DNA from: Stieleria maiorica
GTDB taxonomy: Bacteria; Planctomycetota; Planctomycetia; Pirellulales; Pirellulaceae
DNA length: 64,000 nucleotides
Direction of reading: 5' to 3'
Assembly: GCF_008035925.1 (NCBI RefSeq)
Contig: NZ_CP036264.1
Location: forward strand, 1,523,409 to 1,587,408
Positions 6,001-44,297 of this stretch are shown here, piece by piece; position 1 is the first letter of the stretch, and every line of letters starts with the position of its first letter. The position numbers were made by a program, and so were the translations under genes. The notes beneath the pieces are model-generated. The model was not told the DNA's origin. It did not search any database and saw only the letters and a list, made by a program, of their open reading frames with translations.

Positions 6001-9000
6001 CGCTAGGTAAGAGTCCACCTTCAAACGGTCGATGGTACTGAGGTCTGTCGAATAGATAACGACTTCGCCGAGGTTCAGGTCATCATTGAACCCACCGCCG
6101 GGGTACTCACCTAGGAAGAACTGTCCGAACTGGTTGTTGTCCAGGGGGCTGCCGACGCTCGCGCTACCCGAAGCGGTTAGCTGGCCATCGATGTCGATGC
6201 TCAAACCGACCGGCGTACCCGGTGACGCTTGGGCGTTGATGATGTGGTACCCCGTGCTCGGAAGCGGAGCGGTCAATTGATCGTTGTTCAAATCGCCAAA
6301 GTCGAATCGCAGGTCGTCCTCTAGGTTGACCCGGTTGCTGAGCGTGTCGATCCACTGCAGCATCACTCCGTTGGACCCGTTCGTACTTCCAGCCAGGAAA
6401 AGGGAGGCGGAATCGGATCCGAACAGGTCGGCTCCCCAAACCGAGAGGTCCGACAAGTGATCATCAATGCCGTCGAACGAAATGATCGGGTTGAAATTCA
6501 ATCCGGATGCGATCAGATCGGGGCGTTGCGTGGACAGGGCTTGTTGAAGATCAGACAGCGTCGCGTTGGTGACTTGGTTTTCCCATTGGCTGACTCCTCC
6601 CAGTCCGATCGTGACACCGGCATCGGCCTTCAACCACAACGTCAGACCGTTCGCCACTCCGCCCGGAGCGCCTTTCACGACCGTGACGGTGGCATCGTGG
6701 TTCAAGCTGACGGCGCCGTCGCCATCGTTAAGAGCGAAGCGAATCGTGCGTGCACCGGTGATCGGCGCCACGGTGTCGGTATTTTCGTACGTAATATTTC
6801 GCACCAGTGCGGTGGTCGCTGCCGCATCGGCCGCTGAGTTTAGTGTCACGACCAGGGCCGGTCCTCCCGATCCGCCGGACCAGGTTCCGATCAACACCGC
6901 TCCGGCGCCGAAGTTGTAATAAACGTTTGAGCCCGAAACGCTGATCTGACCGGGATCCGTCCCCTGATTCCGGATCGCCAGAACGTCTTCGCTGGCATCG
7001 AACCCGGCGGCGACCGAAACGGTCAGGCTGCCCGAATCGAAATCGGCCGAATCGACGTCAGAGACCGTCGCATCACCGCCAAATTCGATCGCAAGCGGGC
7101 CGGATGCGGGGAGATAGGCCAAAGTATCCCCGGCCAGATTGCTGATCGTCGGAGATGCGTTCACCCAGCCGCTGGCGGCGGATGAAAAGGAAAACGCCTC
7201 AATCGCCTCGGCCGATGCATCCAGTTTGATATCGACGCCTTCAAAGATCACCGTGCCCGTCGCCACGGTGTTGGTGCCCGCTGTCGTCACCGTCAGTGCA
7301 ACAATATCTTGCCGGTTGACTGCTCCGGCGATGCCAGCAAAACCGCTTCCGATGTCGCCATCAAGTGACACAAGGACTTGGCCTTGCGTCAATCCGGCGC
7401 CACCGAGGGTGATGGGGTTTGCGACCAGTTGAACGGAGGTGAAATCGTTCGACCCGATTCCGATGTCGGTACCGTCAACGAACACCGCTGATGTCCCCGC
7501 AGTTGTTGTGTCCCCCGCACTCGTGACGTCAAAGTAATAAATGACGTTATCCGTTCCTTTCGTTTCGACGAGCAAAAAGTTACCTGCATTGAGTGTCTGG
7601 CCACCGATGGTCATCGTCTCTTCAACGAGGCTGATGCCGCCAATGTTCGTGTCACCGAGTAAGGGATCATCGAGCACGATTTCGAATGTTCCGGTGGAGT
7701 AGTTACCCGGTGTGTCCGGTCGGAAGCGGACCACATCGCTTTCGTCGATCGTGACCGAATTGGTGCTCGTCAGCGTCGGTTGCGATCCGTTGACGGAGAA
7801 CAATACATCACCTTGCTGAAGGCTGATCGTGTTCCCCGGAGCGCCGACGGTGATCGATCGGGTGACGACATGGAGGCCTGTCAGTTCGGTGGCGCCACTG
7901 GCTCCAAAATGATCGGTGAGATCAAAAACGCTGGAAAAGGAGCCGTTGGTCACGCCCGGTTCCAACGAGAAACTTGGGTCGGCGACTTCCAGTAACGTGT
8001 CCTTATCCCAGCTTGTCAGCCCAAGCGTTCCGCTTCCGCTTTCGTCGCCCTTGGTGCTCAACCAGACCGCTTCGCGAATGAAGGAGATGGTTGCGGCGTC
8101 GGGGCCATCGGAATCCGTCCCGTCGGAAACCGCAACGTCAAAGGTTGGCGCCGAGGTGCTGCTGTCGTGGATGAATTGAATGTCACCGGCTGTGACTTCA
8201 CTCTGATTGAAGGTGAAGACCGGAACCCCCGGAGCGGACACACGCTCGAAACTGCCGCCGGTCACGCTCGACACCGTGAACGTGAGTCCCGCGTCGGGGT
8301 GGTCGACGTCGGTCGCCGACAGTGCGTTCGCCGAAAGAACGACGCTGCCGCCTTGGGAGATGACCAGTTGGTTGTTGCCAAGAATCGGGGCGTCATTGAC
8401 CGGATCGATGGTGATTCCCGCCGAGACGGTCGCGCTCAAGTCAGAATTGTTACCGGTCGCGGATGCTTGGAAACTGAATCCGGCCGCGCCGTTGTAGTTG
8501 GACGTGCCCTTGAATTTGACGCCCGCGTTGCCTTCGGCAAACGTGATGAAGCTGTTGTCGCTGATCACCGTCACGCCGTCATTCTTGTACAGTGTTCCGT
8601 TGGTGATGCCGGAGATCTTGAAGTGCGTGACCTCGGTGCCATCGGCGGCGTTGCGTTGCAGTTGAAAGCCCGTCGAAAGCACGTCTTCGTCAGTATTGGT
8701 CGGCCCGTTGAACGTCGGCGTGTCCGCTTTCGGATCGACGTCGATCGTCATCGTGTAGGTCGCGGCGCTGTACTCGGTTCCGTCATAGACTTGGAACGCA
8801 AAACTGTCGTAGGGGGCGCCATGATTCTGCGACACCGGCGTGAAGGTCAAGTTGGGGATTTGCCCCACGGAGATGACCTGTTCGTCGGTCACGTCGAACA
8901 TGCTCAACTTGAGAGTGCCGACGGATTCCAGCGACTTGATCTTGATTTGGGTCAGGCTGTCACCGATGTCCACGTCGGAGAAATTGAAGTCGGACGCCGA

Positions 9001-12000
9001 GAAGGTATAGACGCCGTCTTCGTCCATGCTGACCGTCTTGTTGCTGGCCGTCGGTGCGTCGTTGATCCGAGCCACGTTGACGGTGGTGTCGTGGGCGGCG
9101 CTGGTTCCGCCGTCACCGTCGCTGAGCGTGAATCGAATCGTTCGGACGGAGGTCGTCGGGTTGTCGGTATCGGTATTGCGGTAGGTGATGTTTTCGATCA
9201 ATGCGTCGGCCGCCGCGGTGGTGGCGTTGGCGTTGAAGGTCACCACCAGATCCGCTCCCGCGGTGCCTCCGGTGAAGGTCCCGATCACGACCGGTCCGGC
9301 GCCGAAGTCGTAGCGAACGTCGCTGCCGGAGACGCTGATGTTGCCCACACCGGCACCTTGATCACGGATGGCCAGCACGTCTTCGCCCGAGTCACCGCCG
9401 GTTGTGATGGCCACGGTCAGGTTGCCGGTGTCGAAGTCGGCCGAATCGACGTCGCCGACGGTGACGTTTCCGCCTTGCTCGATGACCGTCGCCGCATCGC
9501 CTTCGCTATAATTCAACGTGTCCCCGGTCAGATTGCTGATCGTTGGGGCATCGTTTTGCGTCGCCACGTTGACTGTGGTGTCGTGGGCGGCGCTGGTGCC
9601 ACCGTCACCGTCATTGAGCGTGAATCGAGCCGTACGGGCGGAGGTCGTCGGGTTGTCGGTATCGGTATTGCGGTAGGTGATGTTTTCGATCAATGCGTCC
9701 GCCGCCGCGGTGTTGGCGTTGGCGTTGAAGGTCACCACCAGATCCGCTCCCGCGGTGCCTCCGGTGAAGGTCCCGATCACGACCGGTCCGGCGCCGAAGT
9801 CGTAGCGAATGTCGCTGCCGGAGACGCTGATGTTGCCCACACCGACACCTTGATCACGGATGGCGAGCACGTCTTCGCCCGAGTCACCGCCGGTTATGAT
9901 GGCTACGGTCAGGTTGCCGGCGTCGAAGTCGGCCGAATCGACGTCGCCGACGGTGACGTTTCCGCCTTGCTCGATGACCGTCACCGAGTCGCCTTCGCTA
10001 TAATTCAACGTGTCCCCGGCCAAGTTGTAAATCGTTGGGGAAGCGTTGCCGGCTGCAACGTATTCAAAGGCTCCGATGTCGGGCGTCGCATCGCGCGTGG
10101 TGCCGCGTTGATCCGTCGTGGGAGCGCCGGTCAATCCCGCAGGGTCGATCGCGGCGCTTCCGACGAGCAAAGCATGTGTTTCGGTGAATCCCCCGTTGCC
10201 GGTCAGCGCACCCAGCATCGGATCGCTGACCGAATCGTCGGATCCGACCTCGACAATCGCCGCGGCACTGGCGATGTTGTATCCGGACGATGTCAATTCC
10301 GCATCCGCATCTGGGCCGATCGCCGCAGTGTTGCCGTACAAGATGCTGTTTTTCAGTGTGACGTCACCGCCGCCACCGGCAATGTGAACGCCGCCGCCGG
10401 TTCCCGTCGAAGGCGTCGTGGCCTGATTATTCGTGATCGTGACGTTGGTCGCGTCGATGTTCTGGTTTGTCCAGATGCCACCGCCCGAGTTGGTCGCCGT
10501 ATTGGTACTGATGGTGACGTTGGTCAGGGTCATCGCGGCCGAACCGCCGCCATTGTGAATGCCTGCTCCGGCCGTCGCGGAGTTACCGCTGAGCGTGACA
10601 TTGGTCAGCGTGGCCGTCCCATTGTTCCGAAGACCGCCGCCCGCATTGCCCGCATTATTTCCGGTGATGGCCACATCGGCCAGAACCAGCGTTCCGCTGT
10701 TGTCGATGCCACTGCCGCTGTTGCCGGTATTGTTTCTGATGACGGTGGTATGGGCAGTGAACATGCCGTCGTTTTGGATGGCGCCACCATTGTTGCTGTT
10801 GTTATTTTCCAGCACGACGTTGGTGACCGTCAAATCCGCTCCGGTTGCAATGTAGACGCCGCCGCCACCGCTGCCACCACTCTGTCCACCCGTGATGGTC
10901 AGGTCCGTGAAGTTGACGACGGTTCCGGCCAGCACGTCAAAGACACGGTCGGGCGATGCCCCCATTCCGCTGGCATCGATGATCGTTGTGGAAGCCGAAT
11001 CACCATGAATGTTGACGCTTTCGGTAATGTCCAGGTCACCGGTCGCTGCCAGGTTTTCGCCGTCCCCCAAAATGGACAGGGTATGTGTGCCCGCACCGAG
11101 ATAAATGTCATCGGTCCCCGACGTGTTGTTGGCCGCAAGGATCGCTTCCCTCAGCGAGATGAATCCGTCGGTCCCTTTGTTGCTCAGCAAGGCGGTGATC
11201 GATGACGTGTCACCGTCAACGGTGTCACTGGTCGTGTCGACGGTGATCGCACTGGCCGGGGGCGCCGCCTTGATCGACACAGCACCGGCGGCCCATGGGG
11301 TGGAAGCTCCATAGGTCCACGATGTCACCACCGATGCCGCACCGTCTTCGGTGGTTCCGGAACCGTTGGCTTGAGAAGAAAACAGGTCCCAATGCTCGGT
11401 CTGACCCGATCCGGGCGTGAAGTCCCAATCGCTGTTGTCGTCCACGCCGACGACGCCGAATACCAGATCGTTGTTGGTCGAAGAAACGGTTACCGAGGGC
11501 GTTCCCGATGTTCCTTGGTCGCCGGTAAACGTTCCCACAGGAGTCGTTTGATCGACGTCGGTGAAGGTCATCACACCGACGGTCGCTCCTTGGTGGTTCG
11601 TGCCGGAAAAGTTGACCACGATGTTGTGGGTGCCCACGTCCGGTGCGACCAGCGACCAGATTTCCACGCGTGACTTCGACGGATCCGCGTGCTCCTGGGT
11701 CCCAACCAAGGTTAGACTGACACCGTTGTAGGTCACCGAACTGACAACGTCACCCATGTCCTGACCAAAAGAGATGCCAACCAACATCAAACGGTCCGTT
11801 CCGGCGGTCGCGTGTGCGAACGACGTGCTTGCTGCACCGGTCCCGGCGGTGTCCGTTGTAGTGTTGTCGATCGTTACGTTCAACAAATGTGCCCAGTTTT
11901 GTTGCACGTCCAGGCTGAAGGCCAGGCTGGTTTCGATCGCTCCGGTCGAGTATTCCAGATCCCAGTCGCCGCCAAAAATCGCGTATCCCGTGTTGTCATC

Positions 12001-13134
12001 GCTGGCCGCGACGTCAGCCCCGGTCAGGCTTGCCAGGGAAGTCGACAGTGTTCGTCCGTCTTCGTCGGCTGCCAGATCACAGCCATAGATCAATAAGTCC
12101 GCGCCGTCGCCAAGCGAATCGCCCCACAGAGCGATCGCGTCGGCATGTTCGTTCAGGTTGTCGAGCGAAAGCCAAGTGTTTCCCAGTTTCAATCGGCCTG
12201 CGGTACCGTGCGTGACCAAGTGAATCGCATCGACGTCGTCATACTGCGCGAGCGCTCGGCTGATCTGATCGATCCCGTCGCTGTGACCATCCAGCAGGAT
12301 CACCTCGAACGACCGTCCGTCGCCACGTTCGCTCTGTAGATCGGCCAGCAACTGCTGGTAGTCCTCGGCGGTTTGATCCACGAGCACGATTTCACGCGAG
12401 GTGTGCTGTTCGTCCGCCGAGGCGACGTCCGCGCTGCTGTCGGCCGCAACACTCTCCGCTCGCACAGCATCTGAGGTCGGGACCGCGACGGTCGCACCGG
12501 TCAGCTCCGAGATGGCCTCCAGCATCGTGCGGCTTTCCGGCGATTGGGACGATTGAAATCCGTGCAGGATCAGGTCCGCGTCTTGCGACAAAGAAGAACC
12601 CCACGCCGCGAAGTCTCCCGCCGATCCGTCCAGATTGCCGGCGTTCACGAGGGAAGACCCTAAACGGAGTTGTCCGTCGGCGCCGTCAGTGAGCAGATGC
12701 ACGGCGTCAATGTCGTTGTAGGCCGAGTGGTTGTAGGCCGACAGGATTTCACCGATTTGCTCGATCCCGTCGCGTGATCCTTCCAGTAGGTAGATCTCCA
12801 GGTCCGCGTTGCCGCTCTCGGATCGCAGGGCATCGACCAACGGTTGATAATCCCCGATGCTGGCGTCGACGAAGGCGACCTCCAATCGCCGTTGCCGCTG
12901 TTGATCGTCCTGCGTCGGATCCCCCTGCCCCGAATGAGTCGTTGCGTCTGCCGCAGTGGCGCCGTCAGGAAAGGGCTGCTGCGTCTCCGGATCAGCGTCG
13001 ACGTGATCGACCGGTGGCGCGATCGGTGTCGCGCTAAAAAGCAACCGCTTCTCCAGAACGGCCGCGTCGAGCAGGTGGCCGCCACGCAGGATTGACGATG
13101 AATCGTGCTTGCGTTTGCGTCGGCGCCACGGCAT
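3016..13134 (-). CDS. Giant DUF4347 / tandem-repeat surface protein with LEPR-XLL-like start
   Basis: A 3372-residue protein, probably exported and cell-surface. The N-terminus is basic and carries [12 protein letters not shown] (28-39), resembling the planctomycete LEPR-XLL signal. Two DUF4347 domains follow (about 84-222 and 248-418). The second keeps a THG histidine (H309) and a GCD cysteine (C352), a possible caspase/CHAT-like dyad; the first has D150 and F193 there instead. Next come a beta-sandwich-like region, a right-handed beta-helix-like region (about 640-1010, many TNVTxxxN repeats), five copies of a repeat starting PTIxNLAGDTL, cadherin-like segments and a LamG-like domain. The C-terminus has a hydrophobic stretch (about 3280-3327) and a very acidic tail. 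The gene is divergent from an export gene set and overlaps a histidine kinase gene. Role as adhesin or surface protein is inference. Confidence 0.9.
4478..5461 (-). repeat. Tandem 492-bp coding repeats (pair 1, giant protein)
   Basis: Two adjacent copies of a 492-bp (164-codon) unit lie in frame near the C-terminal part of the giant gene. The phrase ccacgttgacggtggcgtca recurs at about 4479 and 4971, which sets the period. The protein units begin [12 protein letters not shown] and [12 protein letters not shown]. Nucleotide identity is high by eye, which suggests recent duplication or gene conversion. Confidence 0.9.
9071..10054 (-). repeat. Tandem 492-bp coding repeats (pair 2, giant protein)
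   Basis: A second pair of the same 492-bp unit lies in the middle of the giant gene; the anchor word gccacgttga recurs at 9071 and 9563. The protein copies begin [12 protein letters not shown] and [13 protein letters not shown] fifth, diverged single copy lies near 6675-7155 ([12 protein letters not shown]). Both pairs share exactly the same period. Confidence 0.9.
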
Positions 13135-13446
13135 TGCGGGATCTCAGTTGGTTTGGGACAGAAAGCGAGAATTCGTCACTTAAAGGTAGGTCAGATTCCG
13201 CCGGCGGCTTGTCCGCTTCACCTAAACACTCGTAACGCCAAGGCGGTCTTTAACGGTTGTTCCCAATGGACCGATCCCGTCAAGCCTGCCGAGCATTCCG
13301 AGGATTCATCGCGGCGGCGGATTTGCGGGGCACTTGTCTCCGCCGGTGGGAGTCCGCGAGCGGGTTGAGAACCGATGAACGACATGCGGATAGAGAATTG
13401 GCGGGAGTGCGCCCCGCATCAACAAACTCCACGGATGGAGTGCCCC
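13135..13446. promoter_or_regulatory. Divergent intergenic region between giant gene and tolC-like gene
   Basis: These 312 bases separate the giant minus-strand gene from the plus-strand tolC-like gene and must carry promoters for both. I see no clear operator palindrome or consensus promoter. GGATGGAG at 13433-13440 acts as the ribosome-binding site for the tolC-like start at 13447. An in-frame upstream ATG at 13375 would add 24 residues ahead of the signal peptide and is less likely. Confidence 0.5.
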
Positions 13447-15369
13447 ATGGGACGGACCGTTTGCAATTTCTTCATCGCGATCGCGACCTGTTTTTCGGTC
13501 GCGGGATCGGTGGGTGCGCAAACGCGGGACTTGCCCTCCTGGCTGACCGAATCGACGGTCCCATCGGCGGCCGAAGACGCGCCGGCCCCCGAGTTGACGG
13601 AAGTCTATGCCGAGCCGGTGCCCGAGATCCCGATGGCGGCCGCGCTGCAGCTTGCCGATCAATCGGATGAACATCCTGACGCGGCCCCCTCGCAGGCCAC
13701 GCCACCCTCGTACGTGGCGATGAATCCGGACCCATTGGTCGTCGGTGATGTGCCGAAGGAATGGTTGAACGAAACGACGATTTCGACGTCCGCCGGCCCG
13801 ACCCAGGTGACATCCGCTTCGGTCAAGCAATTCCTAAGGTCGATGGCGCAGCGGTCTCCGATCTCCGATACCTACCGGCCCTGGTGGGAAGCCACCGCAA
13901 CGGCGCCGTTTGAACTTTCCGCATCATCGGTGGTCGTCGACGGGGACAGTTTGATTTTGGAAGCCCTTCGCCACAGCTTTCGCATCGCGGCGGTCAACGA
14001 AAACATCTGCATCGCACGGACAGGCATCACACGCGCGGCGGCGGATTTTGACCCGACCGCGTTTGTCGAATCAAAATTCGTTCGCACCAGCGTGCCCACG
14101 GGAAGCGATCTGGACGCGGGCACTAACGTCGATCGGCTGCGTGAAGAAGACTTTTCGTTCTCCGGCGGTCTGCGACGGAAGACCCAGACCGGGGCGGAAT
14201 TTGAGATCGGACAGCAGATCGGGTTGCGGGACAGCAGCTCGCAATTCTTTACCCCGGACAACCAGGGCAATTCCAGGCTGACGCTCAGTTTCAACCAACC
14301 GTTGCTCAACGGCGCCGGTCAAGCATACAACCAAAGCCTGATCGTGTTGGCCAAGCTGGACACCCAGATCGCCAACGAAGCGGCGACGACCACGATTCAA
14401 GATCATTTGCTACGTGTCCAGGAATCGATGTGGAACCTGTACTACCAGCGGGCGTCTTTGTTGCTGCGGATCCGCCATTTGAATCAAGCCAAATCGATTC
14501 ACGACTGGTTGGAGAATCGACAGGACTTGGACGCTTTGCAGAGCCAGCTCAAACGCGCCGAGGCGGCGATTGCGACGCGGAATTCTGAACTGGCTCGGGC
14601 GGTGACGGCGATCCGTAACGCGGAAGACCAACTGCGGATGCTTGTCAATTCGCCTCGCTTGAGTGATGACAAGACCGTGGAGATCATTCCCGCTCGACCG
14701 CCCTCGCTGACGCTCGTCCCGGTGTCGATGGAAGACGCCGTCGTCACGGCACTGCAGCAGCGGAGTGAAATGAATGAGGTCGCCCGCGAATTGGACACCG
14801 CACGCGTCCGATTGAACGTCGCCTGCAACGAATTGTTGCCGATGTTGGATCTGGTGCTGGAAACCTATGTCAGCGGTTTGCGGGGAAGCCAAGACATCGG
14901 CGGTTCCTGGATCGACCAATTCAGCGTCGGTGAGCCCAGCTATAGCGCCGGGTTGCTCTTTGAAGTGCCGTTGCAACGCCGCGCGGCTAAGGCCAACGTG
15001 ATACGTCGTCAAGCCGAACTGCGTAAGCTGGCCGGCCGTTTGGGCGAAACGATCGCCAAACTGCACGCCGAGGTGGCCGCTGCAGTCCGCGAAGTCGAAA
15101 CCAGCCACCGAGAACTCGGCGCACGCTATGTCGCGATGGTTTCTGCCCAAGAGTATGTCGATCTGATATCCAATCGCTGGCGTGAACTGCCCGGCGACGG
15201 CTTTTCGGCCAACTCCCTGTTGGAGGACCTGCTGGATGCCCAGGATCGATTGTTGTTGGAAGAGGTCGGATTCGCTCGGGCGCAAATCGACTACACGCTC
15301 AGCACCTCGCGACTGAAACGCGCCACCGGCACGCTGCTGCAGATCCAACCGGTCGGTGCGGCGAACTAA
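13447..15369 (+). CDS. TolC-family outer-membrane efflux protein
   Basis: About 640 residues. The chosen start follows a good ribosome-binding site (GGAG six bases upstream) and yields a clean signal peptide with a cut after SVAGSVGA. After a Pro/Ala-rich spacer of about 130 residues, the protein shows the outer-membrane efflux pattern: two halves rich in long helices, for example the Ala/Gln/Arg-rich coil around LDALQSQLKRAEAAIATRN, and shorter beta-like segments with small and aromatic residues. The family forms trimeric channels that join a periplasmic adaptor to an energised inner-membrane unit. Three adaptor-type genes follow on the same strand, interrupted by a RAYT locus. This is probably the outer-membrane pore of the local export system; its substrate is unknown, and the giant protein is the obvious candidate. 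Confidence 0.88.
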   Translation: MGRTVCNFFIAIATCFSVAGSVGAQTRDLPSWLTESTVPSAAEDAPAPELTEVYAEPVPEIPMAAALQLADQSDEHPDAAPSQATPPSYVAMNPDPLVVGDVPKEWLNETTISTSAGPTQVTSASVKQFLRSMAQRSPISDTYRPWWEATATAPFELSASSVVVDGDSLILEALRHSFRIAAVNENICIARTGITRAAADFDPTAFVESKFVRTSVPTGSDLDAGTNVDRLREEDFSFSGGLRRKTQTGAEFEIGQQIGLRDSSSQFFTPDNQGNSRLTLSFNQPLLNGAGQAYNQSLIVLAKLDTQIANEAATTTIQDHLLRVQESMWNLYYQRASLLLRIRHLNQAKSIHDWLENRQDLDALQSQLKRAEAAIATRNSELARAVTAIRNAEDQLRMLVNSPRLSDDKTVEIIPARPPSLTLVPVSMEDAVVTALQQRSEMNEVARELDTARVRLNVACNELLPMLDLVLETYVSGLRGSQDIGGSWIDQFSVGEPSYSAGLLFEVPLQRRAAKANVIRRQAELRKLAGRLGETIAKLHAEVAAAVREVETSHRELGARYVAMVSAQEYVDLISNRWRELPGDGFSANSLLEDLLDAQDRLLLEEVGFARAQIDYTLSTSRLKRATGTLLQIQPVGAAN

Positions 15370-15373
15370 CGGG

Positions 15374-15535
15374 CGCGCTGGTGTTTAGCCTTTAGGCGAC
15401 TCCCTGTCGCTGCTTTGCAGCGAGTGTGTGCGGCTAAAGCCTGGACACCAGCGCGTTGGTGTTTAGCCTTTAGGCGACTCCCTTGTCGCTGCTTCGCAGC
15501 GAGCGTGTGCGGCTAAAGCCTGGACACCAGCGCGC
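15374..15535. repeat. REP family A, two palindromic units (left of RAYT gene)
   Basis: Two adjacent units of about 82 bases (15374-15455 and 15453-15535). Each starts with a GCTGGTGTTTAGCCTTTAGGC-like arm and ends with GGCTAAAGCCTGGACACCAGC, nearly its reverse complement. A small inner hairpin CGCTGC-TTC-GCAGCG lies between. The block lies immediately past the end of the RAYT gene. Confidence 0.93.
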
Positions 15536-15540
15536 TCGGT

Positions 15541-16173
15541 TCAAAGCTCGGGCGGATCCCAGTCTTGGCCATAGTCGTAAATCGGGTATGCACGCCAGAT
15601 CCGCAGCGCATGCTCGCGACCAACATGTTCCACGTACTCGTTTGCACTGCTGTACGGCCACTCGGTCCACTTCCGACAATATCCGTGGTGCACGGGATTG
15701 TGCAGAATGTAGTTCCACGTCGCGTAGTAGTGACCCTCGGATTTCATCGCGGTCTCCGCTGCGTTGCACCACACCTTGCGACCACGTTGTGATTCTTCAC
15801 CGTTCCAATCGAACGATGAGCGACCGTGTAGCGTTCCAATTTGTTTGAGGACGTGCGTCAAATCAGGTGCGTCGACGAGAGCGTGGTAATGGTTGGGCAG
15901 CACGACCCACGCAAACAGGGTTTGGCAAAACTCTTCCAGCAATTCAGACAAACTGTTTGAAAACGCTTCTATTCGTCGATCGGTGATGCCGATGACCGGC
16001 ACATGTTCGAAGCACGCTGCGGTGATCATGTAGAGCGACGTGCGATCGCTTTGAATGTGTGCCGGTGAATGGGGCGGATGATTTCGCTGTCGCCGTTCAT
16101 CGAGAATCTTCTGACGCTGCTGTGGTGTCCAGCGCCGCCATCGGTACATCGATTCGGGATCTTGCGGCATCAC
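15541..16173 (-). CDS. REP-associated tyrosine transposase (RAYT, Y1/HUH family)
   Basis: A 210-residue single-strand-specific transposase-like protein. The HUH metal-binding motif is LPNHYHALVD (H95, H97). The family motif YIxxNPVxxG follows at 155-164, and Y155 is the likely catalytic tyrosine. An N-terminal basic stretch (WRRWTPQQRQKILDERRQR) precedes the core. Family knowledge: RAYTs recognise and cut REP hairpins and are usually single-copy, domesticated genes. Here the gene is framed on both sides by copies of one palindromic repeat (family A), the arrangement expected of a REP/RAYT pair. It lies antisense between the tolC-like gene and the first adaptor gene, so it probably entered a previously compact export locus. 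The reading frame and motifs are intact. Confidence 0.9.
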   Translation of the reverse strand: MMPQDPESMYRWRRWTPQQRQKILDERRQRNHPPHSPAHIQSDRTSLYMITAACFEHVPVIGITDRRIEAFSNSLSELLEEFCQTLFAWVVLPNHYHALVDAPDLTHVLKQIGTLHGRSSFDWNGEESQRGRKVWCNAAETAMKSEGHYYATWNYILHNPVHHGYCRKWTEWPYSSANEYVEHVGREHALRIWRAYPIYDYGQDWDPPEL

Positions 16174-16638
16174 TTCCCCCGTGCAGCAGAAGGATCATCG
16201 ATTCGGAACGAATGATTCTATCGCGGTGAAAGGTTGAATACCAGCGCGCGTTGGTGTTTCGCCTTGAGGCGACTCCCCGTCGCTGCTTCGCAGCGAGCGT
16301 GTGCGGCTAAAGCCTGAACACCAGCGCGTTGGTGTTTCGCCTTGAGGCGACTCTCTTGTCGCTGCTTCGCAGCGAGTGTGTGCGGCTAAAGCCTGAACAC
16401 CAGCGCATGTTGGTGTTTAGCCTTGAGGCGATTCCTCTCGCTGCGAAGCAGCGACCCCCGTGCGGCTAAAGCCTGAACACCAGCGCGTTGGTGTCTAGCC
16501 TTGAGGCGACAGCCGCGGGTCGGGGGGCATTTTTTCGGGTTGTGTCGCTTATTGGTGTCCTAAACTTGCCTCGGGCGAGCTGTTTCATGCAGCCAGACCT
16601 CCATTCCCACCGGCACCCTTCCTGCTTTCCGCGACGCC
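16174..16638. other. Intergenic region: REP array and leader of first adaptor gene
   Basis: These 465 bases upstream of both the RAYT gene (minus) and the adaptor gene (plus) consist mostly of the family A array. The last 128 bases (16511-16638) are non-repetitive and should hold the promoter or at least the translation start signals of the adaptor gene. I see no clear consensus promoter. Confidence 0.7.
16236..16510. repeat. REP family A array, three full and two partial units (right of RAYT gene)
   Basis: A partial tail at 16236-16250, full units at about 16245-16328, 16324-16407 and 16409-16487, and a truncated head at 16485-16510. The units match those left of the RAYT gene but use GTTTCGCCTTGAGGC in place of GTTTAGCCTTTAGGC in two of them. 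In the unit at 16409-16487 the inner hairpin is flipped (CTGCGAAGCAG instead of CTGCTTCGCAG). Spacing is too regular and the arms too palindromic for unrelated sequence. Confidence 0.93.
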
Positions 16639-17472
16639 ATGAAATCCTGCCACCGTTCCGCTGACGTGCGATTGCTCTCGTTCCAAACCGTTTTGATTGC
16701 GGGGATCGCATTGGTCTGTCGGTCTTCCCTCGCGACCGAGGTCCAAGGGTACACCGAACCCGTCCGGACCATCGAAGTCGCGTCGGATGAAACCGGAACG
16801 GTGGACGAGGTGTTGGTGCATTTGGGCCAGAAGATCGAACAAGGCCAACCACTTCTGCGACTGAACAGTCAAGTCCACCTGGCCCAGATCGAAGTTGCCA
16901 AGCAACAGATGAACGCCCAGGGCAGGTTGGATGCCGCCAAGGCGGAGGTCGAATTGACGTCCGCACGGTTGGAAAAACTCGAGTCGCTGCGCAAATCGGG
17001 GCATGCCCGCCAAGCCGAACTTCACCGCGCCGCGAAAGAATTCAAGGTTGCCGAGGCGAATCTGCGCAGTGTCGTCGAAGAGATGGAGACTCGACGGCTG
17101 GAACACGACCGTCTGCTCACGCAAATGCGTCGCCGCGTGATTCACGCCCCGGTCACGGGGATCGTCACCGAACTGCACAAGGAACCCGGGGAGTTCGTCG
17201 CTCCAAATAAGCCGGAGATCATTACCCTGGTTCAATTGGACACCTTGCTGGCCAACTTTGCCCTGCTTGGCTCCCAAGCCGAACAGCTGACGACGGGGCA
17301 GGAAATCGAATTGCAGTTCTCCGAATCGGGGCAAGTGACCTCCGGCAAGGTCCACTTCATCTCGCCGGTGACCGACGCCGAAAGCGGAACGGTGTTGGTC
17401 AAAATCGCGATCGACAATGCCGACGGGATGATCCGCAGCGGCGCCCGCTGCGCGATCCAATTGAAGGATTGA
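16639..17472 (+). CDS. Periplasmic adaptor protein (HlyD/RND adaptor-like)
   Basis: 277 residues with an N-terminal signal sequence (hydrophobic FQTVLIAGIALVC, likely cut after SSLA). A lipoyl/biotinyl half-motif (VDEVLVHLGQKIEQGQPLLRL) is followed by a long coiled-coil hairpin (about 75-165) and the second half (APVTGIVTELHKEPGEFV). A short beta-barrel region ends the protein. In this family the coil docks on TolC and the barrel on an inner-membrane partner. The gene ends six bases before the next adaptor gene, so they form an operon. It is shorter than most RND adaptors and lacks an obvious lipobox or membrane anchor. Confidence 0.88.
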   Translation: MKSCHRSADVRLLSFQTVLIAGIALVCRSSLATEVQGYTEPVRTIEVASDETGTVDEVLVHLGQKIEQGQPLLRLNSQVHLAQIEVAKQQMNAQGRLDAAKAEVELTSARLEKLESLRKSGHARQAELHRAAKEFKVAEANLRSVVEEMETRRLEHDRLLTQMRRRVIHAPVTGIVTELHKEPGEFVAPNKPEIITLVQLDTLLANFALLGSQAEQLTTGQEIELQFSESGQVTSGKVHFISPVTDAESGTVLVKIAIDNADGMIRSGARCAIQLKD

Positions 17473-17478
17473 GCAAAC

Positions 17479-19425
17479 GTGGCGACCGAGATCTCCAACA
17501 CCGGATCCGGCACCGGCGATCCGATCCTGGTCGGCGCCGGCCCCGATTCTACCGGCCCCAAACTCTCTGCACCCAAGCTCGCTGTACCGGATCCGGACGT
17601 ACCGGATGGTTGTGACGGTCTTGCTGCACCGCGTCGCCGCGCGGCCGACGTCGCCGGTATCGCTTCTTCGAACTCTCCGTTCGGATCGGCGGTCAACCAC
17701 CAGGACGCTTCTGAGCGTCTGTTGGAACGGCTGGACGAACTCTCGGTCGTTATCGCGGCCGTGATTTTTGGCATCGATTCTGACGACCAACTGGTTCTTC
17801 CCCAACCGCTGCGTTTGGATCCGAGCGACCGAAACGCGCAACCGCAGTTGGCACAGTTGATGTCGGTCTGTCAACAAACCGCCAGCAGCGGCCAAGTTCA
17901 CTCTCGACGTCAACTTTCCCCAGAACGCGTCCTCATTGCATTTCCGATCGCAACGGGATCGGACTTGCCACAGGTGCTCGGTCTGATGGTTGCGTTGCCG
18001 GACGACCTGCAGCGTTTCACCCAATCCGTCCTTGGGTTGACCGAACAGTTTGCCATCGATCATCTTCAGCATCGTTTGCAACGGCAGGCGGAACTCGCAT
18101 CCGATGCCGCCGCGACCGTTGAACTGTTGACCCGCGCGTTGGCGACCGAGGATCACAAGGAGGCCTGTCAGGTGATCGTGACGGAACTGGCCGATCACTT
18201 GCAACTGCGGCGGGCGGCGATCGGGATGACGTCGAAGGGATCACGAAGTTGCCGGCTGGTGGCGCTCAGCGATTCGACTCGAATCGATGCCTCGACCGCC
18301 CAGACCCGATTGATCGAGAACGTGATGGACGAAGCGTTGCTCTCGGGGGCGATCACGATGGCCGGCTCGGCCACCGGCGGACACGACGCGGCGCGCAACG
18401 CGGCCGAACTGGCCCGCCTACACGCCGCAACCGTCCTGGTTGTGCCGTTGGCCGACGCGCCCGAACAACCCCGCGCTGTGTTGTTGGCCATCATCGATTC
18501 GGATCGGTCGGTCCAGCCGGTTCGGCAGTTTTTGCACGCGGCGCAAAACTCGCTCGGCGCTGTCTTGAATGCACTGCAAACACCGCGTTCCTCTCAAACG
18601 GTTCGACGATTGGGCCGCGCCGTGAAATCGCGATCCGGCAGCCTTGCCATCGCGGCCGGTGTTCTGCTGCTGGCGTCGCTGTTCATACGCATTCCCCACC
18701 GCGAAACCTGCGACGTGCGAGTCGAACCGCGTACCAAACGATTCGTGGCGGCCCCGTTCGATGCGACGCTGAAAGAGTGTTTCGTTGAACCGGGCGATGT
18801 GGTCCGTCAGGGCGATCTGCTGGCAACGCTGGACGGCCGGGAATTGAAATGGAAACGAGAGTCGCTGCAAGCCGATCATGATCAGGCCGTCAAGAAACGC
18901 GATGCCGCCCAGGCATCACGGGCCTACGCCGATCAACGGATCGCACAACTGGAGATCGACGCTCTGCGGTCGGAACTGAATCTGCTGGACCTTCGTTTGA
19001 GTGAATTGCAGCTGCGCAGTCCCGTCGACGGGATGGTCGTGGCGGGGGATCTGAAGCGTGCCACGGGCGCTCCGTTGACGACCGGGCAGTCGCTGTTCGA
19101 GGTCGCGCCGCTGGACGAAATGATCATCGAAGCGTCCGTCAGGGACGACCGGATCGCGTACGTCCAAAAAGACCAACCCGCCCGACTGCGGCTGAACGCC
19201 TATCCCCAACGCAGCTGGGACGCGCGGATCGAAATCGTCAATCCACGCAGCGAGATTCGCGATGAAGAAAACGTGTTCATCGCCCAGTGCACGCTGCCCA
19301 ACGAGCAACAGTTGCTGCGTCCGGGGATGAAAGGGACGCTCAAAATCGACTGTGGCCGTCGTGCGCTCGGCTGGGTTTGGTTTCACCGACCCGCCGAAGC
19401 CGTTTCACAGTGGTTCTGGTGGTAG
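17479..19425 (+). CDS. Sensor-like cytosolic region fused to membrane-anchored HlyD adaptor
   Basis: 648 residues from a GTG start, six bases after the previous stop. The first 380 residues have no signal peptide and look cytosolic: a Pro/Gly-rich leader, then one or two alpha/beta modules resembling GAF domains (about 75-205 and 215-360; for example RLHAATVLVVPLAD). A single membrane helix follows (about 387-405, SLAIAAGVLLLASLFI). The remainder is HlyD: VKECFVEP-type lipoyl half (ECFVEPGDVVRQGDLLATLDG), a short coil, RSPVDGMVVAGDL, and a beta-barrel ending RPGMKGTLKI. A GAF-like cytosolic sensor on an export adaptor is unusual. The GAF call rests on fold pattern only and is moderate. The gene ends five bases before the M50-HlyD gene. 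Confidence 0.8.
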   Translation: MATEISNTGSGTGDPILVGAGPDSTGPKLSAPKLAVPDPDVPDGCDGLAAPRRRAADVAGIASSNSPFGSAVNHQDASERLLERLDELSVVIAAVIFGIDSDDQLVLPQPLRLDPSDRNAQPQLAQLMSVCQQTASSGQVHSRRQLSPERVLIAFPIATGSDLPQVLGLMVALPDDLQRFTQSVLGLTEQFAIDHLQHRLQRQAELASDAAATVELLTRALATEDHKEACQVIVTELADHLQLRRAAIGMTSKGSRSCRLVALSDSTRIDASTAQTRLIENVMDEALLSGAITMAGSATGGHDAARNAAELARLHAATVLVVPLADAPEQPRAVLLAIIDSDRSVQPVRQFLHAAQNSLGAVLNALQTPRSSQTVRRLGRAVKSRSGSLAIAAGVLLLASLFIRIPHRETCDVRVEPRTKRFVAAPFDATLKECFVEPGDVVRQGDLLATLDGRELKWKRESLQADHDQAVKKRDAAQASRAYADQRIAQLEIDALRSELNLLDLRLSELQLRSPVDGMVVAGDLKRATGAPLTTGQSLFEVAPLDEMIIEASVRDDRIAYVQKDQPARLRLNAYPQRSWDARIEIVNPRSEIRDEENVFIAQCTLPNEQQLLRPGMKGTLKIDCGRRALGWVWFHRPAEAVSQWFWW

Positions 19426-19430
19426 CCGCC

Positions 19431-21596
19431 ATGTCGGACGACCAGCAGCATTTTGCAAGCGACCAAAGCACGACGTCGGTGGTGCTTCGCCAGGATTTGC
19501 GGGTGACGCCGTGTGAGGATGCACGGCAGCCCCACGTGGTCGTCGAAGATCCGGTTGCGGGAGCGTTTTATCGGCTCGGCCGGATCGAGTACGCGTTGGC
19601 GTCTCGCCTGACCGCCTCGCGGACGATCGCCCAGGCCTATCGGGACGTGTGCGAGCAATACCCTGACCATCGCGTGTCCGAGGACGATGCGGCCGATCTG
19701 TGCCGCTGGTTGATCGACAACCAATTGGCGCACACCGAGTCGTCCAAGTCCTCGGCACGACTGCATCGCTCGGCCGAGAAATCCGAAACGGATCGGTTCA
19801 AACAACGCGTCAACCCGATCGCGATCCGAATCCCGCTGCTACATCCCGATCGGATGGTCGGCAGCTTAGTGCAGTTTACGGGTTGGATCTTCTCGGTGCC
19901 CGCGACCGCCGTCGGCGTCCTGGTGATGCTGTTCAGTGGATGCTTGGCACTGATGCACTGGGAGCAACTAACCGCATCCACACAGTATTTGTTTGCGCCA
20001 TCATCGCTGTCGCTGTTGCTGTTGCTGGCTGTGACCGTTGGCTTGAAAGTGATTCACGAATTTGCCCATGCGATCGTTTGCAAACGCTACGGCGGAGACG
20101 TCGGCGAGATGGGGGTGTTGCTGATCTTGTTGGCACCGCTGGCCTATGTCGACGTCAGCTCGGTTTGGCGGTTCCGTCGCCGCTGGCAACGCATTCACGT
20201 CGCGTCGGCGGGGATCTATCTGGAACTGCTAGTCGCCGCGATCGCGATGTTGGTTTGGCGCTCCGCCGATTCAGCGTTGGTCCGACACGTGTGCACCAGC
20301 GTGATGCTCTCGGCCGGCGTCGCGACGCTGGTGTTCAATGCCAATCCGCTGATGAAGTTCGACGGCTACTTCATGCTGGTCGACTGGGCCCGGGCGCCGA
20401 ACTTGTACACGGACAGCCAGAACCAGTTGCGACGATTGCTGCGACGCCTGTTTCTGGGCGGCGAGGTCAAAGAGCCTCAATGGACACCCGGCTATCGGAT
20501 TGCCGTCGGTGTTTACGCACCGCTGGCATTGTTTTGGAAAGGTTTTGTATGTCTGGGGCTGACGCTTGCCGCGACGAAACTCTTTCACGGGCTGGGAACG
20601 CTGCTGGCGGTCGTCGCCTGTGTGTGCTGGATCGGCGGTCCGGCGTGGCGTGGTTTTTCGATGATTCGCAAGGCCCCACGGTCCGGGCGGCGACGGTTCG
20701 CGCTGGCCGCGGCCGGATCGCTGGCGCTGGCCGGTGCCCTGTCGGTGGTGGTCCCCTGGCCGGGAGCGACGCCGGTCCACGCGGTGGTGGAGTATTCGCC
20801 GCACGAAGTGGTGCGGGCCGAGGTGCCGGGATTTGTCCACGCGATCCATGTCGACACGGGACAGTGGGTGTCCGAGGGCGAGCAGCTGTTGACGCTTCGC
20901 AACCCGGAACTGGTCCTCGAAGCCGAGCAGTTGGAAACGAAGATTCAACAATCGACGTTGCGCAGGCGCCAACAGACGCTTCGAGGGAAACACGCCGCCG
21001 CGCAAGCCGAGGCGACCGAGTGGGAGTCGTTGACAAGACGGCTGCAAGACGCGAACGAACAAATCGATTCACTGGTCGTCCGTGCGTCCCGTTCCGGCGT
21101 GGTCGTTCGCCGACGATTGCAGGAGTTGCAAGGAACCTATGTCGCCCAGGGCGATGAGTTGCTGGTGATCGGAGACGAATCACAAAAGGAACTTCGGCTG
21201 CTGATTCCGCAGGACAGATACGACCAGTTTCGCGATCAGGCCGGTACCGCGGTTCGGTTTCGCGCCCCCGGACAGCCGACGCAAATGTCTGCGTTGTCAA
21301 CGATCATCCCGCGGGCGCGGACCGAGGTGGATTATCCGTCGTTGCTGGCCAGTAACGGAGGTCCGCTGGCGGTCAAACACGTTTCCAACGATGCATCGCA
21401 AGCTGCTGCGGAATTCGAATTGCTGGTGCCCCACTTCGAAGCCATCGTTCCGCTCGATGCGTCGCAAGGCGCCGGTTTGCATAGCGGACAACGAGCCAGT
21501 GTCTCGATCGGGGGACTCGACCGGACGATCGGATCGCACCTGTGGCGGGTGACGGCGGAGTGGATCGACCAGGCGGTTCAAGCGACAGACCGCTGA
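19431..21596 (+). CDS. PqqD-like / M50 site-2 protease / HlyD fusion membrane protein
   Basis: 721 residues; ATG at 19431, five bases after the upstream stop. The first about 110 residues resemble a PqqD-type winged helix (YRLGRIEYALASRL, then a helical DDAADLCRWLIDNQLA). Membrane segments follow with the zinc-protease motif HEFAH (H209, E210, H213) and the partner motif NANPLMKFDG (303-312, D311 as third ligand), both hallmarks of site-2 proteases. More membrane helices lead to a C-terminal HlyD region with a lipoyl half (VPGFVHAIHVDTGQWVSEGEQLL) and a coil. Related fusions occur in bacterial peptide and protein export loci. With TolC-like and HlyD genes upstream and no ABC ATPase, this is the best candidate for the inner-membrane component. 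Energy source and substrate are unknown. Confidence 0.88.
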   Translation: MSDDQQHFASDQSTTSVVLRQDLRVTPCEDARQPHVVVEDPVAGAFYRLGRIEYALASRLTASRTIAQAYRDVCEQYPDHRVSEDDAADLCRWLIDNQLAHTESSKSSARLHRSAEKSETDRFKQRVNPIAIRIPLLHPDRMVGSLVQFTGWIFSVPATAVGVLVMLFSGCLALMHWEQLTASTQYLFAPSSLSLLLLLAVTVGLKVIHEFAHAIVCKRYGGDVGEMGVLLILLAPLAYVDVSSVWRFRRRWQRIHVASAGIYLELLVAAIAMLVWRSADSALVRHVCTSVMLSAGVATLVFNANPLMKFDGYFMLVDWARAPNLYTDSQNQLRRLLRRLFLGGEVKEPQWTPGYRIAVGVYAPLALFWKGFVCLGLTLAATKLFHGLGTLLAVVACVCWIGGPAWRGFSMIRKAPRSGRRRFALAAAGSLALAGALSVVVPWPGATPVHAVVEYSPHEVVRAEVPGFVHAIHVDTGQWVSEGEQLLTLRNPELVLEAEQLETKIQQSTLRRRQQTLRGKHAAAQAEATEWESLTRRLQDANEQIDSLVVRASRSGVVVRRRLQELQGTYVAQGDELLVIGDESQKELRLLIPQDRYDQFRDQAGTAVRFRAPGQPTQMSALSTIIPRARTEVDYPSLLASNGGPLAVKHVSNDASQAAAEFELLVPHFEAIVPLDASQGAGLHSGQRASVSIGGLDRTIGSHLWRVTAEWIDQAVQATDR

Positions 21597-21711
21597 TTCG
21601 GTTTTGCGGGTCGTATCGAACGTGCGGACACCGTTTAAGAATCCAAATTGTTAGCCCAGTGCGAATTTGCAACATCACCTCCAACGTCGACAGATTGACT
21701 TACGGTTTCCT

Positions 21712-21728
21712 GCGAGAGCAGCTCTCGC
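21712..21728. promoter_or_regulatory. Perfect palindrome upstream of HD-GYP regulator gene
   Basis: GCGAGAGC-A-GCTCTCGC, two perfect 8-base arms around one base, lies 28 bases before the chosen start of the response-regulator gene and overlaps alternative upstream starts. It could be an operator for a dimeric regulator or an RNA hairpin; chance cannot be excluded. Confidence 0.35.
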
Positions 21729-21756
21729 GATGATTTCTAGGCAACCCCAAGAGCGG

Positions 21757-22938
21757 ATGAACGCGACGACTCCATCAACGTTGGCCTGTGCCGTGGCCCC
21801 CCCGGCACCCGTCGCTTCGCAGAGGTCCAAGGAGACCGGCTGCACGAAGTCCGGTCGTGTCATGATCGCCGACGATGAGCCGATCAACATCAAGTTGATT
21901 CAAAAGTACCTCCGCAGCGCGGGGTACCACGAGTTTGTCACGACGAGCGAGTCGCGTGAGGTGGTTGATCTGGTGCGGTCGACGCGGCCCGATATCTTGA
22001 TTCTCGATGTCGTGATGCCGCACGTCACGGGGTTGGACATCCTGGAGATCATCCGCAACGATCCCGATCAGGCTCATCTGCCGGTTCTGATCGTGACCGC
22101 ATCGACCGACGAGCAAACCAAGATCGATGCGTTGGAACTGGGGGCGACCGACTTTTTGCATAAACCGGTCAAACCGACCGAGTTGTTGCCGCGGGTGCGA
22201 AACTCGCTGGTGCTCAAGGCGCACCACGACCAGATGGCCGCCTACTCCAAACGACTGGAAGCCGAAGTCGCCCAGCGGACCGCCGATCTGGCCCAGTCAC
22301 GCGAAGAAGTCATCCATGTGCTCGCCTGTGCGGCCGAGTACCGTGACCAAGAAACCGGCAACCACGTCATTCGTGTCGGACGGTTCGCGGGAATCATCGC
22401 GCGCGAATTGGGCTGTTCGGAATCCGATTCCGAACTGATCGAACACGCCGCGATCTTGCACGACGCCGGCAAGATCGGCATCTCCGATTCGATCCTGTTG
22501 AAACCGGGTCGGCTGTCGCCCGACGAGTTTGAGTTGATGAAACGGCACTGTGAATTCGGCGAGCGGATTCTAAAAGCCCAGCCGAGCGATGAAAGCGAAC
22601 CGTTTCTGTTGCACAGTCGTCGTCCCGTGACGCGTTCACCCGTCTTGCGAATGGCGTCGGTGATCGCGAGGACGCATCACGAACGTTGGGACGGAACCGG
22701 ATACCCCGAGCAACTGGCCGGGGAAGAGATTCCGATCGTCGGCAGGATCACAGCGGTCGCCGATGTCTTCGATGCACTCAGCAGCAAACGCTGCTACAAA
22801 GACGCATTGCCGCTGGAGCAATGTATCGAAATCATGCGCAAGGAACGCGGCAAGCACTTCGATCCCAAGGTCCTGGACGCGTTCCTGGCAAGGATCGACG
22901 AAGCCTCCCAGATCGTCGTCAGCCTGGCCGACCAATAG
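21757..22938 (+). CDS. Response regulator with HD-GYP phosphodiesterase domain
   Basis: 393 residues from ATG 21757; in-frame ATGs at 21667 and 21730 would add 30 or 9 residues of low-complexity sequence, so the start is uncertain. A CheY-like receiver (about 34-150) has acidic D39/D40 and phosphoacceptor D84 in LILDVVMP. A coiled linker joins a complete HD-GYP domain with HD at 235-236 (ILHDAGKIG), HHERWDGTGYP with GYP at 315-317, and ADVFDAL. Family knowledge: HD-GYP domains hydrolyse cyclic di-GMP to pGpG or GMP. It lies 160 bases after the M50-HlyD gene on the same strand and is a plausible partner of the hybrid kinase at the other end of the locus, linking export or adhesion to cyclic di-GMP. 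That link is inference. Confidence 0.93.
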   Translation: MNATTPSTLACAVAPPAPVASQRSKETGCTKSGRVMIADDEPINIKLIQKYLRSAGYHEFVTTSESREVVDLVRSTRPDILILDVVMPHVTGLDILEIIRNDPDQAHLPVLIVTASTDEQTKIDALELGATDFLHKPVKPTELLPRVRNSLVLKAHHDQMAAYSKRLEAEVAQRTADLAQSREEVIHVLACAAEYRDQETGNHVIRVGRFAGIIARELGCSESDSELIEHAAILHDAGKIGISDSILLKPGRLSPDEFELMKRHCEFGERILKAQPSDESEPFLLHSRRPVTRSPVLRMASVIARTHHERWDGTGYPEQLAGEEIPIVGRITAVADVFDALSSKRCYKDALPLEQCIEIMRKERGKHFDPKVLDAFLARIDEASQIVVSLADQ

Positions 22939-41864: not shown

Positions 41865-42021
41865 TCGATTGTCCTTACGTTCGAATCAGCCGGCTTTTTC
41901 AAAGGCCGGCTTCTGTTCAGCCAGTACAAGTCGGAGGAATGCAGTGCCCTCCGCGTCAAGCACATCGTACCGCCGCCCCGGGTCTTGGCACCAGAGCAGC
42001 GAGATGGGCGGAAAAATCAAG

Positions 42022-42094
42022 CAGGAGTGGAGGGACTTGAACCCGCAACCGCTGGTTTTGGAAACCAGTGCTCTGCCAATTGAGCTACACTCCT
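42022..42094 (-). tRNA. tRNA-Trp (CCA anticodon)
   Basis: 73 bases. Acceptor stem AGGAGTG/CACTCCT is perfect, D-arm GCTC...GAGC, anticodon arm CTGGT-TTCCAAA-ACCAG with anticodon CCA, T-loop TTCAAGT. The T-stem has one C/T mismatch. The discriminator is G and the 3' CCA is not encoded. It lies between tuf and secE. Confidence 0.97.
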
Positions 42095-42138
42095 TCGCTC
42101 GGTCCGAACCGGAATTCGGCTTCGCGTAGTTTAAAGCA

Positions 42139-42175
42139 GAGAACCAACGAACCGCTAGGTGATTCGTTGGTTCTC
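42139..42175 (-). terminator. Strong stem-loop between tuf and tRNA-Trp
   Basis: GAGAACCAACGAA and TTCGTTGGTTCTC form a perfect 13-bp stem around an 11-base loop, 57 bases past the tuf stop and 45 bases before tRNA-Trp. There is no T-run after it, so it may be an RNA processing or partial termination signal. Confidence 0.6.
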
Positions 42176-42231
42176 GCGATGTCTTTCTTCGAGATTGACG
42201 CCGGCGAGGGCGTCAAAGCGTCCCGCGGGGA

Positions 42232-43841
<1,610 letters not shown>

Positions 43842-43850
43842 GACGGGCAG

Positions 43851-43921
43851 AGCGGGTGAAGGGAATCGAACCCTCGTATTCAGCTTGGAAGGCTGCTGCA
43901 CTACCATTGTGCTACACCCGC
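43851..43921 (-). tRNA. tRNA-Gly (UCC anticodon)
   Basis: 71 bases. Acceptor GCGGGTG/CACCCGC, anticodon loop CTTCCAA with anticodon TCC, T-arm GAGGG-TTCGATT-CCCTT with a terminal G-T pair, discriminator T. It lies nine bases upstream of tRNA-Thr(GGU) in the transcript. Confidence 0.97.
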
Positions 43922-43982
43922 TTGATCGTGCCGGTGACACGAATCGCAAAATCGAGCCTCTCGATTTGCGATTATCTCTCTA

Positions 43983-44064
43983 TGGGGGCTATTGGATTCG
44001 AACCAATGTAGGCGTAGCCAGCGGATTTACAGTCCGCCCCCTTTAACCACTCGGGCAAACCCCC
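43983..44064 (-). tRNA. tRNA-Tyr (GUA anticodon)
   Basis: 82 bases with a long variable arm, as expected for class II tRNA-Tyr. Acceptor GGGGGTT/AGCCCCC, anticodon arm GCGGA-CTGTAAA-TCCGC with anticodon GTA, T-arm ATTGG-TTCGAAT-CCAAT, discriminator A. Confidence 0.98.
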
Positions 44065-44297
44065 TTTTTGTTTGTCGATCGTGTTGCTTAAGTCTTGCTG
44101 TCGGTCTCGTCGTGCAAATGGATCGGTAAATTCTCGGTCGGATCGTGTTTCGCCAGGAAGTGTGCCTTGTCAGGCCGTCGCTGGCAAGGTGGCTTGCCGG
44201 CCGGCCCGCGCGGTTGCACCACCTGAACCGTTTCGGACTCTCAGCACGCAGTCTCTCAGCCCGCAGTGGTGTCACCCGTTAGTGGTGGCCACGCCAA

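Follow-up and report, generated by a model that had tools for sequence, protein, structure and literature searches.

The window analysed here is a stretch of 64,000 nucleotides (positions 1523409-1587408) from the single-contig genome of Stieleria maiorica, which measures 9.89 Mb. It carries a gene for a giant protein and, divergent to it, a set of genes for a TolC-like channel, a small HlyD-type adaptor, an adaptor with a GAF domain (GAF-HlyD) and an adaptor fused to an M50 site-2 protease (M50-HlyD). The set is considered below as a putative export module and the giant as its predicted cargo. The features are as follows, in window positions:

65..3019, minus strand: hybrid histidine kinase (PAS-HisKA-HATPase-REC-Hpt), behind the giant gene
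3016..13134, minus strand: giant protein of 3372 amino acids (aa), predicted cargo, with LEPR-XLL tag, two DUF4347, cadherin/Ig repeats, choice-of-anchor Q and C-terminal domain
3097..3372, minus strand: conserved C-terminal domain of the giant (GYVxWxxRGG...PAWxxxDPL)
11881..12390, minus strand: DUF4347 copy 2, caspase-like fold, His and Cys kept
12472..12879, minus strand: DUF4347 copy 1, degenerate (TDG / HGF instead of THG / YGC)
13006..13056, minus strand: LEPR-XLL N-terminal tag (aa 27-43; NF012209 18.0 bits, cut-off 17)
13375..15369, plus strand: TolC-like outer-membrane channel (PF02321, 2.6e-18)
15373..16510: REP-like repeat arrays around a RAYT transposase gene (15541-16173, minus strand), at the position of SecA in many relatives
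16639..17472, plus strand: small HlyD-type adaptor with signal-peptide-like N-terminus (RND_mfp 1.1e-36, over its cut-off)
17479..19425, plus strand: GAF, hydrophobic segment (about aa 387-405), HlyD adaptor
19431..21596, plus strand: RRE/PqqD-like head (about aa 1-110), M50 site-2 protease, HlyD adaptor
20055..20069, plus strand: HEFAH zinc motif, invariant in the 45 sequences aligned; the third ligand is an Asp in NANPLMKFDG (20337-20366)
21667..22938, plus strand: response regulator with HD-GYP domain, found in the same place in the relatives L031, L032 and L063

A first-pass annotation of this DNA had described a TolC gene and three adaptor genes in a row, the adaptor genes 5-6 bases apart. 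The gene set and the spacing were borne out, the latter as intergenic distances of 6 and 5 bases, but TolC does not directly adjoin the adaptors, from which it is separated by a gap of 1.27 kb. The TolC start given at the time, 13447, is an in-frame ATG ahead of a signal-peptide-like stretch; the open reading frame (ORF) starts at 13375. The gap holds the gene for RAYT (REP-associated transposase), which scores 75.6 bits against a cut-off of 80, flanked by REP-like copies with a direct spacing of 78-80. This content rules out a broken pump hidden between TolC and HlyD. In the relatives L063 and L032 the gap measures 138 and 209 bases, respectively, and contains no SecA. The GAF domain of the GAF-HlyD protein stays below its cut-off in the window (E 0.0028) and exceeds it in the relative L064.

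The earlier observation that the locus has no ATP-binding cassette (ABC) ATPase or resistance-nodulation-division (RND) pump was confirmed: no ABC gene was found in the window using a local profile, and no RND gene was found near it. The nearest ABC_tran matches, with 150 of 197 candidates scored, lie at genome positions 1488739-1489191 and 1613048-1613449, at distances from the module of about 48 and 68 kb. The local profiles were made from 22 of 30 seed loci for ABC and from 8 of 12 for RND, the remainder (minus strand) having been dropped. When 48 stretches with M50-HlyD genes from relatives and from paralogues in the same genome were inspected, ABC ORFs were present in five, which is the background level (about 0.16 expected per 20 kb, from 77 matches in 9.9 Mb), and linkage of ABC to the module was rejected. 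An RND ORF was present at the edge of one of the 48 (L094), and also at the edges of L242 and L243; outside the family, L252 contains an ABC ORF. Neither type of pump is thus routinely linked to the adaptor set in other genomes. The set might nevertheless consist of ordinary adaptors for efflux of small molecules or metals that borrow an RND or ABC pump from elsewhere, with the giant as a mere neighbour. The small HlyD protein scores over the RND_mfp cut-off, the HlyD part of M50-HlyD is MacA-like and RND and ABC genes are numerous in the genome, all of which would suit this explanation. It is considered unlikely, as ABC ORFs do not exceed background in the 48 stretches and the linkage and co-occurrence with the cargo, described below, are far from chance. 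Compared with MacAB-TolC and MexA-type adaptors (9qgy, 3fpp), MacB is missing here and an adaptor is fused to a protease; the linked pump of RND tripartite efflux was not found near the window.

Both protease motifs assigned to M50-HlyD in the first-pass annotation, HEFAH and NxxPxxxxDG, are present, the second as NANPLMKFDG. An alignment (A2) of 45 M50 relatives, taken from 50 listed ORFs of which five were left out, revealed that H209, E210, H213, N303 and D311 are invariant, and HExxH was present in 79 of the 79 M50 ORFs found, the same gene sometimes being counted twice. The family of the window protein carries the signature of M50 site-2 proteases, HExxH plus a distal Asp, and since the metal ligands are kept in all 45 aligned sequences, the M50 of the module is likely to be proteolytically active. 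A profile search also matched the site-2 protease MJ0392 (7.4e-4), and the Pfam score of the window M50 is 25.0-25.5 (cut-off 27.2). Structure matches of the M50 model cover residues 434-708 almost exclusively, so that they say little about the fold of the membrane part.

The PqqD-like head that had been proposed for the same protein is weak when judged by the single sequence, and PF05402 matches only three of the 45 M50-HlyD members. A profile of 29 N-termini reaches RRE proteins (TfuB1, E 0.04; TbiB1, 0.13; PqqD, 0.28; among 14 matches), albeit behind two designed repeat proteins with far higher scores. The predicted model of the head region consists of strands followed by three helices. With such a head, and with the daptide protease NF041824 as the best NCBIfam match of M50-HlyD (2.1e-49), the module could be thought to mature and export a small modified peptide, in the way that RRE and M50 proteins act together in daptides and epipeptides, the giants being incidental. 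The proteases of those pathways (NF041824, NF058609) share the M50 domain, and the profile match covers aa 30-400 including the RRE-like head, but the module protein falls below both cut-offs (168.7 bits versus 300 for NF041824) and has a HlyD tail. The recurrent partner of the module is a giant with an N-terminal tag, small ORFs not having been searched systematically, and peptide maturation is regarded as very unlikely.

A segment of 127 bases of the M50-HlyD gene (window 20925-21051) recurs about 4.5 Mb away with 99.2 % identity (L030 7769-7895, about G000:C1:6045769-6045895), and REP-like repeats are located about 4 kb from that site. No match to the gene longer than 127 bases was found in the 15-kb stretch L030.

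A module of this composition has been described by Kamneva, Poudel and Ward (2015; PMC4452313). In the available text of that paper, secondary SecA_DEAD genes in five phyla are clustered with genes for HlyD, Peptidase_M50, GAF-HlyD and sometimes OEP, without ABC. SecA was proposed there as the ATPase and M50 as the pore, the broader role of the module was called 'completely unknown', and in some genomes SecA and its partners were noted to be encoded apart. These proposals partly anticipate the core idea of the first-pass annotation. The words DUF4347, giant, cadherin, adhesin and PqqD are absent from the main text of the paper as available. The window shares with the module the joint encoding of M50-HlyD, GAF-HlyD and HlyD and the lack of ABC in the locus; it differs in that its SecA is not in the locus but in trans, and in belonging to a class linked to tagged giants. 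In the open-access literature no cargo for the module, no description of the C-terminal domain and no two-end signature were found. The module is thus known; what is new, as far as could be found in print, is the assignment of a cargo, the domain at the C-terminus of the giants and the signature formed by their two ends.

M50-HlyD matches were obtained in 99 of 100 genomes of the family, in some perhaps through the HlyD part alone. Among the 150 M50-HlyD and 150 DUF4347 matches listed, 32 of 79 matches of class A, the kind present in the window, and none of 71 class B matches have DUF4347 within 15 kb, the two classes being separated by an arbitrary cut at 240 bits in one search with borderline matches assigned to class B. 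Nine single-contig genomes contain class A; in these, DUF4347 is located at 13 of 21 class A loci, versus 0.46 expected by position, and at none of 10 class B loci. The same gene set was found again beside DUF4347 genes in many genomes. Taking 44 class A loci including the window, M50-HlyD, GAF-HlyD and HlyD are encoded together in 41, and TolC with three HlyD-type proteins is present in 38. Forty loci were picked for DUF4347 linkage or for the size of the contig, so that only the count within 15 kb is unbiased for linkage.

The C-terminal domain of the giant follows the same distribution. It was detected in 46 of the 100 family genomes; 41 of them also have class A and five have the domain only, while eight genomes have class A only and 46 have neither. 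For the 57 genomes that are at least 95 % complete the corresponding numbers are 27, 1, 3 and 26. The domain is about 95 aa long; among 42 distinct cases, 0-34 residues separate it from the stop in 40 and 86 residues in the other two. No shared Pfam or NCBIfam family was found for it, the matches being weak and confined to single members among 22. At the other end of the protein, NF012209 was applied to ten N-termini, of which five scored over the cut-off, two scored below it and three gave no match; across the whole genome this 24-position model gave no match, but the controls were silent too. Both the LEPR-type motif, as defined by our own regular expression, and the C-terminal domain were present in 19 of 31 complete DUF4347 ORFs in the fetched loci; 11 had neither and one had the tag alone. 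Three proteins of 944-1038 aa (L204, L205, L206) combine a LEPR-like start with the C-terminal domain in the absence of DUF4347, and no Pfam family scores over its cut-off in them. The DUF4347 domain itself has a caspase-like fold with a His/Cys pair, the alignment (A3) having been made with eight of 56 fragments left out, three of them degenerate.

Tandem DUF4347 also occurs in G013, G077, G096 and G010, among the matches listed, and the first copy in L082 lacks its Cys. In L083 and G077:C3:476-544 kb three giant frames of 7323, 6649 and 8619 aa with DUF4347 and the C-terminal domain stand in a row and adjoin one class A module.

Linkage and co-occurrence taken together suggest that the giants are quite probably the cargo of the module. 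Three tandem giants with tag, DUF4347 and C-terminal domain are encoded at 668-695 kb of the genome of the window, about 150 kb from the nearest M50-HlyD match, and one exporter may therefore serve several cargoes.

With regard to the energy source, the first-pass annotation had proposed the M50 fusion, by itself, as the inner-membrane part in place of the pump. In its strongest form this means that M50-HlyD is the engine, without an ATPase, and that cleavage gives directionality. The fusion of the protease to an adaptor, the invariant M50 ligands, the lack of ABC, RND and SecA at the locus itself and the fact that four further M50-HlyD loci of the genome have no SecA in their stretches are all compatible with this. 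However, a SecA-like gene is located inside the cluster in 18 of the 44 class A loci, and SecA, GAF-HlyD, HlyD and M50-HlyD stand in a row in six class B clusters (L214-L218, L220), which were chosen because SecA was near and have no DUF4347 giant in the stretch. Site-2 proteases are not known to drive transport. The cluster SecAs are 600-750 aa long, and five that were examined with Pfam have SecA_DEAD (1e-70 to 1e-83) with P-loop and preprotein cross-linking domains. One of the five has a wing/scaffold fragment; they resemble in this the SecA of the 2015 module, which, in the text available, lacks all or most of that region.

The window has no local SecA, but its genome does keep a SecA of the class A kind at G000:C1:499943-502288, about 1.03 Mb away. 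In a FastTree tree of 41 SecA proteins it groups with the class A-linked SecAs of G055 and G086 with a support of 1.0, its neighbour being one from G086, where the closest module, L063, has no SecA of its own in the locus either. A second SecA of the genome, located at 2080 kb, groups with those of class B. Judging from the grouping of the SecA in trans with class A-linked SecAs, the gene has probably left the module in this lineage. These observations make an M50 engine without an ATPase improbable and argue for SecA as the probable motor. A role of the M50 part as a pore is doubtful.

The locus would accordingly be read otherwise than before: not as a protease taking the place of a pump, but as class A of a SecA-linked, type-I-like module that has its SecA in trans and is devoted to tagged giants. 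That the window belongs to this module and that the neighbouring giant and its kin are what it exports is our favoured interpretation and seems probable, on comparative grounds.

A number of observations weigh against this interpretation. Of the class A matches listed, 47 of 79 have no DUF4347 within 15 kb, for which contig ends are partly responsible, and eight of 49 class A genomes are without the C-terminal domain. The Fisher counts of the co-occurrence ignore shared ancestry. DUF4347 was present in 28 of 392 genomes drawn from the phylum, the genome of the window included; 20 stretches, representing 23 of the 34 DUF4347 places outside that genome (excluding weak ones and some located at contig ends), were used to look beyond the family. 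In favour of the interpretation, M50-HlyD is located beside the giant in eight of these 20 (in 7 of 17 genomes), two of which, from one genus, have SecA; against it, M50-HlyD is missing from the other 12. Also in its favour, in the stretch L033, from a deltaproteobacterial metagenome-assembled genome, a LEPR-like/DUF4347 giant, HlyD, OEP, M50-HlyD and HlyD stand in a row, the tag scoring 14.7, below the NF012209 cut-off. The C-terminal domain was found neither in nine DUF4347 ORFs from outside the family with visible ends nor in L033; it is consequently no universal signal, and the N-terminal tag is the wider signature.

Further reservations concern SecA and the ends of the giants. Support for the class A SecA group as a whole is only 0.105 at its base. 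The four other M50-HlyD loci mentioned above (L021-L024) have no SecA in their 20 kb, and G004, G070 and G077 have class A modules and yet only two SecA proteins each, of which one was taken for the housekeeping protein and the other for a class B one on the basis of length and score and, in the latter two genomes, of placement in the tree. A dedicated SecA is therefore not always there. In favour of the interpretation, 24 of 25 ORFs have no strongly hydrophobic stretch at the N-terminus, although three of the 25 (L207, L209, L211) probably do not begin at their true starts. The C-terminal segment is moderately hydrophobic, the best 19-mer scoring 1.34 in the window, with a median of 1.66 and at least 1.6 in 26 of 43 rows, one row being a cut copy of another; a membrane segment cut by M50 is therefore a guess. 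All of the support is comparative.

If the giant is the cargo, it would be synthesised without a signal peptide. The RRE (PqqD-like) head of M50-HlyD may bind the LEPR-XLL tag, and/or the C-terminal domain may be recognised at the inner membrane. The SecA-type ATPase, local in many relatives and encoded elsewhere in the genome of the window, would drive the chain through a periplasmic conduit formed by M50-HlyD, GAF-HlyD and the small HlyD protein to TolC, and the GAF domain could gate this conduit by a cytoplasmic signal. The site-2 protease may trim the moderately hydrophobic C-terminal (or N-terminal) segment, by which passage would be coupled to release or anchoring. The first-pass annotation had suggested that cleavage is coupled to export of the giant; with the protease ligands invariant and the set recurring beside DUF4347 genes this is plausible, and the balance is slightly in favour of M50 cutting the cargo.

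The GAF domain and the protease could also be parts of a regulatory device, in which sensing and intramembrane proteolysis control the display or shedding of a giant that arrives by another route. GAF-HlyD itself, the invariant protease site, the hybrid kinase beside the giant, the HD-GYP regulator downstream and the caspase-like DUF4347 in the cargo would fit such a role. However, the occurrence of TolC with three HlyD-type proteins in most class A loci looks like a conduit, and most of the giants have no signal-peptide-like start, which makes a purely regulatory function rather improbable.

Giant adhesins such as LapA and SiiE are exported by type I secretion. Export of the giants by the module would share with canonical type I secretion of such adhesins TolC, HlyD, a giant repeat protein that probably lacks a signal peptide and a conserved C-terminal region, and would differ from it in the absence of a linked ABC transporter, the fusion of M50 and GAF to adaptors and the use of a SecA-type ATPase. 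The accessory Sec systems of Gram-positives employ a second SecA (SecA2), in some cases for large surface proteins; here, SecA is joined to HlyD/TolC and an M50 protease. These SecA2-type systems are mentioned in the available text of PMC4452313. Tce1 (9qpe_G), a DUF4347 protein of the type VI secretion system (T6SS) of Pseudomonas aeruginosa, and CHAT/caspase proteases differ from the giants, in which DUF4347 is a domain behind the N-terminal tag; in one published passage a DUF4347 protein is handled as a putative T6SS toxin. More tentatively, the module may represent a distinct secretion system with a SecA-type ATPase, an RRE-headed protease-adaptor, a GAF-gated adaptor and TolC, which would read a two-part address (LEPR-XLL in front, the C-terminal domain behind) and in which cleavage of one end, together with self-cleavage by DUF4347, would decide between display and release.

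The assignment gives an orphan module a likely cargo and address, and with these a testable secretion pathway. If it is correct, it would explain how planctomycetes can export proteins of between 2,000 and about 9,000 residues although no ABC exporter is linked to them, and the LEPR-XLL tag, the DUF4347 of the giants and the module of 2015 would all gain a function; for the tag and for DUF4347 in giants none is given in the available parts of the literature found.

Among the named relatives, the highest identities of M50-HlyD are those with Rhodopirellula sp. JC639 (87 %) and Stieleria neptunia (75 %). In JC639 (L031 1-7000) no TolC or giant gene was found within 10 kb upstream of the M50-HlyD gene, where a sulfatase gene and a TPR/redoxin-like gene are located. 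Several relatives, too, have kinase-type genes next to the giant or to the module. Further along the window, five tRNA genes (Trp, Thr, Gly, Tyr, Thr) are located on the minus strand at 42021-44370.

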